A DNA stretch of 64,000 nt from Cyclobacteriaceae bacterium (GTDB taxonomy: Bacteria; Bacteroidota; Bacteroidia; Cytophagales; Cyclobacteriaceae). Location: assembly GCA_019638395.1 (NCBI GenBank), contig JAHBTX010000002.1:372001-436000 (forward strand), read 5' to 3'. Numbering within the stretch: position 1 is the first letter of the stretch; every line of letters begins with the position of its first letter. Below, piece after piece: positions 21,429 through 27,996 of this stretch. The translations under genes and the position numbers were made by a program. The notes under the pieces are model-generated. The model was not told where the DNA came from. It made no database searches and saw only the letters and a list, made by a program, of their open reading frames with translations.

Positions 21429-21553
21429 GAGCAGAATCTCAAAAGTTCTTGTCATCGCGGATTCATTCCGCGATCCCGCCAAGTAGCACTCAACGGGATT
21501 CCGGCACAAGTCCGGAATGACATTCTACCTTGGGGACTTTTGAGATTCTGCTC
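21429..21553. repeat. 125-bp cloverleaf-type palindromic element (copy A)
   Basis: Perfect 18-bp terminal inverted repeats (GAGCAGAATCTCAAAAGT at 21429-21446, complement at 21536-21553) enclose an inner GTCAT/ATGAC stem and two hairpins, TCGCGGA-TTCAT-TCCGCGA and ATTCCGG-CACAAGT-CCGGAAT. The core matches, in reverse orientation, the element at 27865-27988. It has no ORF and lies in the pirin/dioxygenase divergent promoter region. Confidence 0.85.
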
Positions 21554-21580
21554 ATGTTTTAAACAAAGTTATTACAATAA

Positions 21581-21592
21581 TTGTCTATACAA
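21581..21592. promoter_or_regulatory. Candidate operator TTGTCTATACAA before the dioxygenase promoter
   Basis: TTGT-N4-ACAA lies just upstream of the -33 region of the dioxygenase promoter. The same half-sites occur in the perfect marR palindrome at 36554. A MarR/DUF24-type regulator is plausible, but the match is short. Confidence 0.3.
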
Positions 21593-21596
21593 CTAT

Positions 21597-26086: not shown

Positions 26087-26713
26087 ATGAACTATCATAT
26101 TCCTCTGGTACCAGACAATTATTACCATCTCTTTAGTAGAGCTGTAGGGCAAGAAATACTTTTTAAGTCAAATGAAAATTACTTGTATTTTTTAGAAAGA
26201 ATGAAACATCACGTTTTGCCGGTGGCAGACTTACTTGCATACTCGTTACTTCCCAATCATTTTCATTTAGTTATAAGAGTCAAATCAGAGAAAGAATTAT
26301 TCAATTTATTTCACTTAAAAAAGAAAAAACTTCTTAACTCAATAGAAATTTTTCTACCAGATTTTGTCATGGAACAATTTAGCAACTGGCTTAATGGCTA
26401 TACAAAAGCTTTTAACAAATTGTACAAGCGAAAAGGGGGATTGTTTATGGACTACATCAAGCGCAGCGAAGCCGCAAAGGATAGCTCATTAACTTCATTC
26501 ATTTTCTATGTTCATAAAAATGCGGTTCATCACGGACTAACAAAAAATATTGGCGACTGGAAATTTGATAGCTATAAAAGCATAATCAGCACAAAACCAA
26601 CTAAACTTAAGCGGGACGAGGTAATTGAATGGTTTGGATCTGTCAGACAATTTATTGAATTCCACCAACAACCCGTTGATTTAAAACATGAGGATATTGA
26701 TTCAAACCTATAA
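26087..26713 (+). CDS. REP-associated tyrosine transposase (RAYT, Y1_Tnp family)
   Basis: This 208-residue HUH endonuclease is of the IS200-like RAYT class. The HUH metal motif is H58-F-H60 in LLPNHFHLVIRV. The nucleophile is most likely Tyr105 in NGYTKAFNKLYKRKG, the usual RAYT context. The tail FIFYVHKNAVHHGL is also typical. RAYTs cut single-stranded palindromes next to their own gene (REP sequences). Here a perfect palindrome lies 18 bp before the start. The stop TAA lies inside a second copy, so the final codons Asn-Leu-stop are repeat-derived. The gene appears intact and could be active. Its codon use seems more AT-rich than that of its neighbours, which fits acquired DNA. Confidence 0.92.
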   Translation: MNYHIPLVPDNYYHLFSRAVGQEILFKSNENYLYFLERMKHHVLPVADLLAYSLLPNHFHLVIRVKSEKELFNLFHLKKKKLLNSIEIFLPDFVMEQFSNWLNGYTKAFNKLYKRKGGLFMDYIKRSEAAKDSSLTSFIFYVHKNAVHHGLTKNIGDWKFDSYKSIISTKPTKLKRDEVIEWFGSVRQFIEFHQQPVDLKHEDIDSNL

Positions 26714-26732: not shown

Positions 26733-26758
26733 CCAAGGTTCGTGTCCCCACGAACCTA
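26733..26758. repeat. AGGTTCGTG hairpin, left copy
   Basis: CCAAGGTTCGTG-TCCC-CACGAACCTA forms a 9-bp perfect stem (26736-26744 with 26749-26757). An inverted copy lies at 27438-27464, on the other side of the RibD-like gene. Confidence 0.85.
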
Positions 26759-26810: not shown

Positions 26811-27440
26811 ATGAGCAAAATTATTTTCGATAGCGCCATATCTCTTGATGGCTTTTTTGCAGGCAATAACAGAGGCCCTAAAAATCCAATGGGTGGTGTT
26901 TCCGGGAAAATACATTCGTGGATGTTCAATCAAAAGGCTTTTTGGCAATACCTGGGAATGGAAGGCGGCAAAGAAGATGGACCCGATGGAAAATTCATCA
27001 GAGAGACTATTGACCGAACCGGAGCTTTCATTATGGGTAAACGTATGTTTGAAGAAGGTGAAGTAGTTTGGCCCAACGATTTGTATAAAGCTGATGTGTA
27101 TGTTTTAACCCACGAAAAGCGTGAACCCTGGATTCAGGAAGGAACAACTACCTTTTACTTTATTAATGATGGAATAGAAAGTGCGTTGGACAAAGCTAAA
27201 AAATCTGCAAAAGGAAAGGACATACGCATACAAGGTGGCGCCAACACGATCCAGCAATTTTTAAATGCCGGTCTTATCGATGAGTTTTTTATTCACCTTG
27301 CTCCGGTTTTTTTAGGCAGTGGAATTCGGCTTTTTGAAGGCATGAATAAAGACCTCTATGAGATTGAACTTGAAGAAGCGATATCCTCAACCCTGACCAC
27401 GCATTTAAGATACACGCTGACAAAGAAATCCAACGTGTAG
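26811..27440 (+). CDS. Dihydrofolate reductase/RibD C-terminal-like reductase
   Basis: This 209-residue protein has the RibD_C fold: IIFDSAISLDGFFAG at the N-terminus, GAFIMGKRMFEEGE (NADPH-binding turn), DVYVLTHEKREP, RIQGGANTIQQFLNAGLIDEFFIHLAPVFLGSGIRLFEG. Members are NADPH-dependent reductases of unknown substrate and are often annotated as dihydrofolate reductase family. It is flanked on both sides by inverted copies of an AGGTTCGTG hairpin, and its own stop TAG overlaps the right copy. This suggests the 3' end was shaped by repeat insertion. It may be a cargo gene of the repeat-rich island. Confidence 0.88.
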   Translation: MSKIIFDSAISLDGFFAGNNRGPKNPMGGVSGKIHSWMFNQKAFWQYLGMEGGKEDGPDGKFIRETIDRTGAFIMGKRMFEEGEVVWPNDLYKADVYVLTHEKREPWIQEGTTTFYFINDGIESALDKAKKSAKGKDIRIQGGANTIQQFLNAGLIDEFFIHLAPVFLGSGIRLFEGMNKDLYEIELEEAISSTLTTHLRYTLTKKSNV

Positions 27441-27464
27441 GTTCGTGCAGACACGAACCTTGGC
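27438..27464. repeat. AGGTTCGTG hairpin, right copy (inverted)
   Basis: TAGGTTCGTG-CAGA-CACGAACCTTGG is the reverse complement of the left copy at 26733 apart from two loop bases. Its first bases form the stop codon of the RibD-like gene. Confidence 0.85.
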
Positions 27465-27858: not shown

Positions 27859-27864
27859 CTAAGC

Positions 27865-27988
27865 GGCTGTATCAAAAGTCGTATTAAGTGTAGAATGTCA
27901 TTCCTTTCTTGTGCCGGAATCGCGTTGAGTATATGAACATGAGATCGCGGAAAAAGTCCGCGATGACAGAGCTACTTTTGATACAGCC
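27865..27988. repeat. 124-bp cloverleaf-type palindromic element (copy B)
   Basis: Perfect 15-bp terminal inverted repeats (GGCTGTATCAAAAGT at 27865-27879, complement at 27974-27988) enclose GTCAT/ATGAC and two hairpins (ATCGCGGA/TCCGCGAT and a weakened ATTCC/GGAAT). The core matches copy A at 21429-21553, whereas the terminal arms outside TCAAAAGT are different but self-complementary. It lies between convergent genes. Confidence 0.85.
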
Positions 27989-27996
27989 TCCTTACA

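Follow-up and report, generated by a model that had tools for sequence, protein, structure and literature searches.

Short elements with covarying terminal arms around a CGTC-type REP heterodimer in a Cyclobacteriaceae genome and its relatives

The window analysed here is a stretch of 64,000 nucleotides from the genome of a Cyclobacteriaceae bacterium, in which two short palindromic elements carry terminal arms that differ from one copy to the other and are paired within each. This raises the question of what is copied or kept at such places: a sequence or, as the original prediction held, a folded form. Both predicted copies were present, copy 1 at 21429..21553 (125 bp, core orientation taken as minus) and copy 2 on the plus strand at 27865..27988 (124 bp; 27863-27990 with the outermost GC/TC). 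Copy 1 is flanked by a pirin gene and a glyoxalase-family gene that point away from each other, and copy 2 by a bacterial globin gene and an unnamed gene that converge on it. It should also be noted that a near-palindrome (ATAATTGTCTATACAACTAT, 21577-21596) adjoins copy 1 and has counterparts like it in the five syntenic relatives that were viewed; it is perhaps a repressor operator common to the divergent pirin and glyoxalase genes.

Within each copy the arms (unstranded features) pair perfectly, as had been claimed: over 18 nt in copy 1, where an altered form of the arm, GAGCAGAATCTCAAAAGT (21429..21446), faces ACTTTTGAGATTCTGCTC (21536..21553), and over 15 nt in copy 2, where the near-standard form GGCTGTATCAAAAGT (27865..27879) faces ACTTTTGATACAGCC (27974..27988). 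Between the arms of copy 1 lie a first CGTC-type REP hairpin on the plus strand (21451..21474), with a GTC tag, an 8 bp stem ATCGCGGA/TCCGCGAT and a 5 nt loop by the criteria of PMC3733652, and a second one, inverted, on the minus strand (21498..21521; stem ATTCCGG/CCGGAAT). The first hairpin of copy 2 (27897..27920, plus strand) is damaged, with ATTCCTT against CCGGAAT, and the inverted second one (27944..27967, minus strand) is intact. The predicted sharing of core hairpins holds in that the cores match (41 nt at 90% and 26 nt at 88%), but they do so as inverted repeats, the copies being oppositely oriented, and only one copy 2 hairpin is whole. Against dinucleotide shuffles, the DNA fold had z-scores of -8.7 and -9.2 on the two strands of copy 1 and -4.7 and -5.3 on those of copy 2, with 0/200 shuffles as good on either strand of either copy. 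The cloverleaf that had been described is clear in copy 1 only, since the damaged REP hairpin leaves the predicted fold of copy 2 unclean. A search of 20-29.5 kb of the window against Rfam gave two sub-threshold matches, neither on an element copy.

An initial DNA search found 8 places of the family in this genome, and a core model built from 26 cores gave 11 loci. Most common among these is the arm GAGGCTGTCTCAAAAGTC or something close to it. Copy 2 is of that type, both arms are altered in copy 1 (GAGCAGAATC-) and in the copy at 711 kb of contig C1 (GATGAATC-), and two further copies have arms GTCATCTCAAAAATACT and AGACTCAAAAGCCC. The arms of the window copies had been said to agree in an octamer only; the copy 1 arm is indeed odd, but the shared arm is longer than this, as the copy 2 arm lies near the commonest one. 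In plan, the element has two CGTC-type REP hairpins whose tags point outward, and the paired terminal arms enclose them. It is short, non-coding and multi-copy, with terminal inverted repeats and empty sites, as expected of a miniature inverted-repeat transposable element (MITE).

A CGTC-type REP is described as a tag, CGTC or TGTC, and then a stem that starts with AT, the stem being of 8-9 bp and the loop of 4-5 nt; such REPs occur mainly as HH dimers, in which the tags lie outside, and are said to lack a dedicated transposase (PMC3733652). By this description the core of the element is a CGTC-type REP HH heterodimer, sharing with the published dimers the GTC tag, AT stem start, 8 bp stem and 5 nt loop (both in intact copies), short CC tail, outward tags, heterodimeric build and occasional intragenic copies (PMC3733652). 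GTCAT was found in both orientations in 22 of the 26 listed cores (left end), the others being one base off, and the tags lie outside in the aligned cores. The second stem position of the REP hairpins pairs in 37/37 copies, and intact copies (L219, for example) show ATTCCGGC-CTTGT-GCCGGAAT and ATCGCGGA-N5-TCCGCGAT; one hairpin of copy 2 and the second hairpin of copy 1 deviate from the stem description.

Rickettsia RPE-4 and RPE-6 are in-frame coding insertions, and two copies in this genome are likewise in frame inside genes, with the differences that the present element has terminal arms and belongs to another host phylum. One of these (L225 1475-1594; 571 kb of contig C21), with arms AGACTCAAAAGCCC, lies within an open frame of 866 residues whose best solved relatives are HrpB helicases, and the HrpB match stops at the insert. 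The other (L220 1468-1595; 415 kb of contig C23) sits close to the 5' end of an open frame that has a lipoprotein-like signal sequence, so that this frame may owe its first residues or its start codon to the element. RPE-4 and RPE-6 also resemble the element in being CGTC-type palindromes (PMC3733652).

Among the relatives searched, the family was detected in 12 of 58 genomes, all 12 of this genus. The genome G031 yielded 15 fetched copies with a median pairwise identity of 99.2%, and eight of them, each at its own site, do not differ at all over 129 bp, which means that they were copied recently. Four G031 copies (L052, L059, L127 and L138) occupy the same place within a repeated sequence of that genome, so this host repeat was either copied along with the element or hit repeatedly. 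The same kind of core was found within another arm class, GGGCATCTCTAAAAACC, in G028 and G035, and several matched, unrelated arm classes surround one kind of core.

Named genomes were also searched with the pattern TCTCAAAAGT N80-110 ACTTTTGAGA, which leaves 7 outer arm nucleotides free, and at least 111 stretches matched. Among the matches listed, 8 of the 111 titles belong to other groups (Anaerolineales, Chloroflexi, Bacillota and others) and the remainder to Bacteroidota, Ignavibacteria or close relatives. The 185 raw matches, in which some places are counted repeatedly, formed 97 clusters, and 91 elements are left when 6 chance-like representatives are removed. Still among the matches listed, the outer 7 arm nucleotides, free in the pattern, read exactly GAGGCTG in 84/226 arm ends, and the spacing of the inner arm ends was 114-118 in 63/91 elements, though the pattern permitted 100-130. 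The cores vary widely, with GTCAY..RTGAC in 56/91 of the elements among these matches, for which the interior fold had a median z of -3.6 and exceeded -1 in 9/91. Arm variety is underestimated here, because the pattern fixes TCTCAAAAGT on both sides and the sample consists of the matches listed. A search of a plasmid collection for the element gave no match. One viral contig (L380 7262-7368) carries an element whose symmetric arms, unrelated to GAGGCTG, extend at least 20 nt beyond the inner decamer.

The proposal that the arms compensate for one another was examined in 37 whole elements, hand-picked from the copies fetched, aligned, and cut by position and not by pairing. Double changes occurred in 14 of the 18 pairs of the arm helix (6.7 in shuffles) and in 46 arm cells against 11.0 in shuffles, with 0/500 shuffles as high; kinship alone can beat shuffles, less so for counts of pairs and types. 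Arm cells were paired in 89.9% of cases, compared with 37-50% when the arms were slid, and the right arm of copy 1 was misplaced by MAFFT, an error that works against the structure. Covariation over the whole structure was similar to that of the arms, and compensatory changes were present in the core hairpins too. In the 97 representatives of the matches listed, 6 chance-like clusters included, there were 73 paired two-sided departures from the consensus (permutation mean 14.8, maximum 30 in 2000), along with 115 one-sided departures and 14 that were two-sided but unlike. The compensatory arms are therefore no accident of two copies.

The further step, that the fold and not the sequence is what counts, was borne out only in part: the arms do covary, but their sequence is conserved, one-sided changes occur in recent copies, and mismatched arms have not kept one variant from multiplying. 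Thirteen G031 copies are at least 96% identical to L048, and the three of them with arm changes (L056, L059 and L061) have none that is paired. In G023, copies L070, L071, L073 and L074 share the right arm GGGGTTG opposite GAGGCTG or GAGACTG, so perfect arm pairing is not needed for copying. Copies with unpaired arms, which had been named as evidence that would count against the claim, thus exist to some extent: the share of paired arm cells given above falls short of all, and the longest perfect arm stems in this genome run from 8 to 19 nt over the 11 copies and in two of them are not longer than 8 nt.

Empty sites and target-site duplications had been proposed as signs of insertion; the first were found, and of the second no constant one. 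The orthologous pirin-glyoxalase gap lacks copy 1 in five relatives (G008, G012, G060, G023 and G017), none of which has GAGCAGAATC there, G017 carrying 106 bp of other sequence. The copy 2 site is empty in two relatives; in G031 the two stop codons read TAA-A-TTA there and enclose nothing, and in G060 the site is taken by a different kind of hairpin. The arms thus arrived with the element, and their being flanking repeats of the host, the second objection that had been foreseen, is ruled out by their absence from these sites. No consistent target-site duplication was detected in 53 copies (k 2-9, offsets 0-4), these being 53 of 74 after copies with arms unlike the consensus and two duplicates were left out, and 8 of 82 copies having been left out of the preceding set. 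At copy 1, G060 has CTTGTTTAAACAAAG where the window has CTTGGTTAAA, the element and ATGTTTTAAACAAAG, so a short duplication (TTAAA/TTTAAA) is possible there and copies may differ in this respect. The bases next to the arms were complementary above chance in the 53 copies, over 3 bp in 11 (3.9 expected) and over 5 bp in 5 (0.81 expected), with no complementarity of 7 bp or more; flank positions 1-3 were also complementary above chance in the 97 representatives of the matches listed.

Some sites hold different elements in different genomes. G023 and G012 have elements in the same flanks, each of its own genome's subfamily (98% and 97% to kin, 84% to one another). At 711 kb of contig C1, the elements of this genome and G023 have cores of opposite orientation and arms that differ between the two but match within each; their likeness is only 77%, and they may have inserted separately. 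At 415 kb of contig C23, the arm class of this genome is not that of G026. The double use of some sites points to a site preference, and replacement through the arms may account for it instead. Two other comparisons were discarded: L072 and L093 are not one orthologous copy with a symmetric deletion, as their cores are of different subfamilies, and the apparent inversion in the pair L080/L094 came from a motif that was too loose.

The reading that we favour, with about even confidence in it as a whole, is that of a non-autonomous, MITE-like element mobilised in trans. Copies 1 and 2 would be members of a mobile family of about 125-130 bp, the arms (most commonly GAGGCTGTCTCAAAAGTC) serving as terminal inverted repeats around an inverted CGTC-type REP heterodimer with its tags outward, and the whole unit, arms included, would be inserted by a transposase supplied from elsewhere. 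Arm covariation would then arise because both ends are read by the same transposase and because source lineages have different matched arm pairs. Many copies would be kept in the short stretches that follow genes, the T-flanked stem possibly serving there as a two-way terminator. This reading is supported by the 11 loci of this genome and the 12 positive genomes among the relatives, the identical G031 copies, the empty sites, the conserved outer arm sequence, the narrow spacing of the inner arm ends, the matched alternative arm classes, the likeness of the arm to a published IS5-family end and, in the wider sample, the convergent gaps and T-rich flanks described below. Against it, elements with mismatched arms have multiplied, terminator use does not suit the divergent and in-frame copies of this genome, and the fetched loci, the pattern matches of five genomes and 13 viral contigs yielded no autonomous parent, an element whose like ends enclose an open reading frame; contigs that break inside copies weakened this search in G031, and the parent may lie elsewhere. 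The complementary bases outside the arms, together with the lack of a constant duplication, are likewise not predicted by plain transposition through terminal inverted repeats.

Two published systems are close to this reading. The first is that of Halothiobacillus neapolitanus. All of its CGTC REP dimers lie inside 41 bp palindromes, which the authors treat as targets (Di Nocera et al., 2013; PMC3733652); the arms studied here differ from these palindromes, as described there, in being a widespread terminal repeat with several matched, covarying classes and in having been seen to insert with the element (PMC3733652). The second is the IS5-related MITEs of Porphyromonas gingivalis, where ISPg4 (IS5 family) and MITE464 end in GAGACTGTTGCA (PMC4596501), to which the arm is alike at 9/12 positions by our count. 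Those MITEs are also short, non-coding elements of Bacteroidota with terminal repeats starting GAG and similar over 12 nt (PMC4596501), but the present element has another interior, no matching full-length insertion sequence was found for it, and it lacks a constant target duplication.

A different mobiliser is conceivable, namely a hairpin-reading Y1 (HUH, REP-associated) transposase that recognises the folded single strand of a REPIN-like unit, leaving the arms to drift as long as they pair; we consider this rather unlikely. The hairpins of the REP-dimer core, the lack of a constant duplication, the covarying arms and the several unrelated arm classes on one kind of core would all fit. As in REPINs and REP-associated tyrosine transposase systems (PMC3116915, PMC6006769), including TIRtrons (PMC3733652), inverted REP pairs form the mobile unit; unlike REPINs, the element has extra conserved terminal arms and does not co-occur with the Y1 class tested. 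Y1 transposase genes were found in 41 of the 58 genus genomes, and a divergent REP-associated tyrosine transposase lies between the window copies (26087-26713; NF047646, E 5e-10, under its cut-off; no Pfam match). An inverted hairpin pair (26733-26758 and 27438-27463) follows this gene. However, strong Y1_Tnp matches (PF01797 class) do not track the family, being present in 13/17 element-positive and 28/41 element-negative genomes (p 0.75), with element calls that are partial: six first-look candidates were scored per genome, so that copies may have been missed in negative genomes, and partial matches underlie some of the positives. An association with PF01797-class Y1 transposases was rejected on this lack of co-occurrence, as was membership of the REPIN/RAYT systems of that class. 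Class 1 arms occurred near only one of ten Y1 loci scanned, the five with flanks viewed (L148, L151, L154, L155 and L156) adjoin arrays of other short hairpin repeats that differ at each gene, and the conservation of the arm sequence also argues against free drift.

Selection on an RNA hairpin after insertion, as a terminator or an RNA-stabilising stem with compensatory changes arising in place, is an unlikely explanation. Of the 61 representatives of the wider sample that could be classified, 26 lay in convergent gaps; with genes called by a simple ORF rule, 26 of the 282 background gaps at least 60 nt long were convergent (odds ratio 7.3, p 4e-9). The 61 are drawn from 80 representatives in loci of at least 3 kb, 14 others being at edges, 3 far from genes and 2 inside ORFs. 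The outward flanks are T-rich, 79/193 ends having 5 or more T among their first 7 nt against 7 to 18/193 further out, so that the shape of a terminator, a stem and then a T-tract behind genes, fits this sample. Pairing that continues a few bases beyond the arms and the compensation in the core hairpins also agree with RNA selection. The same shape does not fit the copies of this genome, where 1 is convergent, 3 are divergent (including copy 1, upstream of two divergent genes), 5 are tandem and 2 lie inside reading frames; no convergent enrichment is seen among the 9 intergenic copies, and terminator use does not suit the divergent and in-frame ones. Moreover, recent G031 copies are already mostly in convergent gaps, as an insertion preference would also predict, and L072/L093, the single clear case of shared flanks combined with matched differences in the arms, represents two subfamilies.

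In quasi-palindrome correction, template switching copies a change from one arm into the other. Such homogenisation of the arms, which may also flip the core, is quite improbable: the C1:711 kb elements, with opposite cores and different matched arms, and the complementarity past the arm ends would suit it, but those two elements may be separate insertions and the unpaired arm changes of recent G031 copies indicate that correction is at best slow.

The combination of a REP core with arms, its spread and its covarying arm classes may be new, in that no published description of these ends or of the family was found in the open-licence literature searched; a Lactobacillus sequence match there was dismissed as an entry of a CRISPR spacer table. 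Returning to the MITE-like element favoured above, CGTC-type dimers held inside matched, covarying ends offer a handle on what moves such REPs. The natural variants, with arms swapped on one core, cores swapped in one arm pair and two elements per site, lend themselves to tests of sequence against fold. More tentatively, the family may belong to a class of mobile palindromes of Bacteroidota and Ignavibacteria with exchangeable arm and core modules, whose mobiliser reads paired ends and not one fixed sequence, leaves no duplication and revisits sites, a wider proposal that we consider rather unlikely. If true, it would be the missing mover of the CGTC-type REPs.
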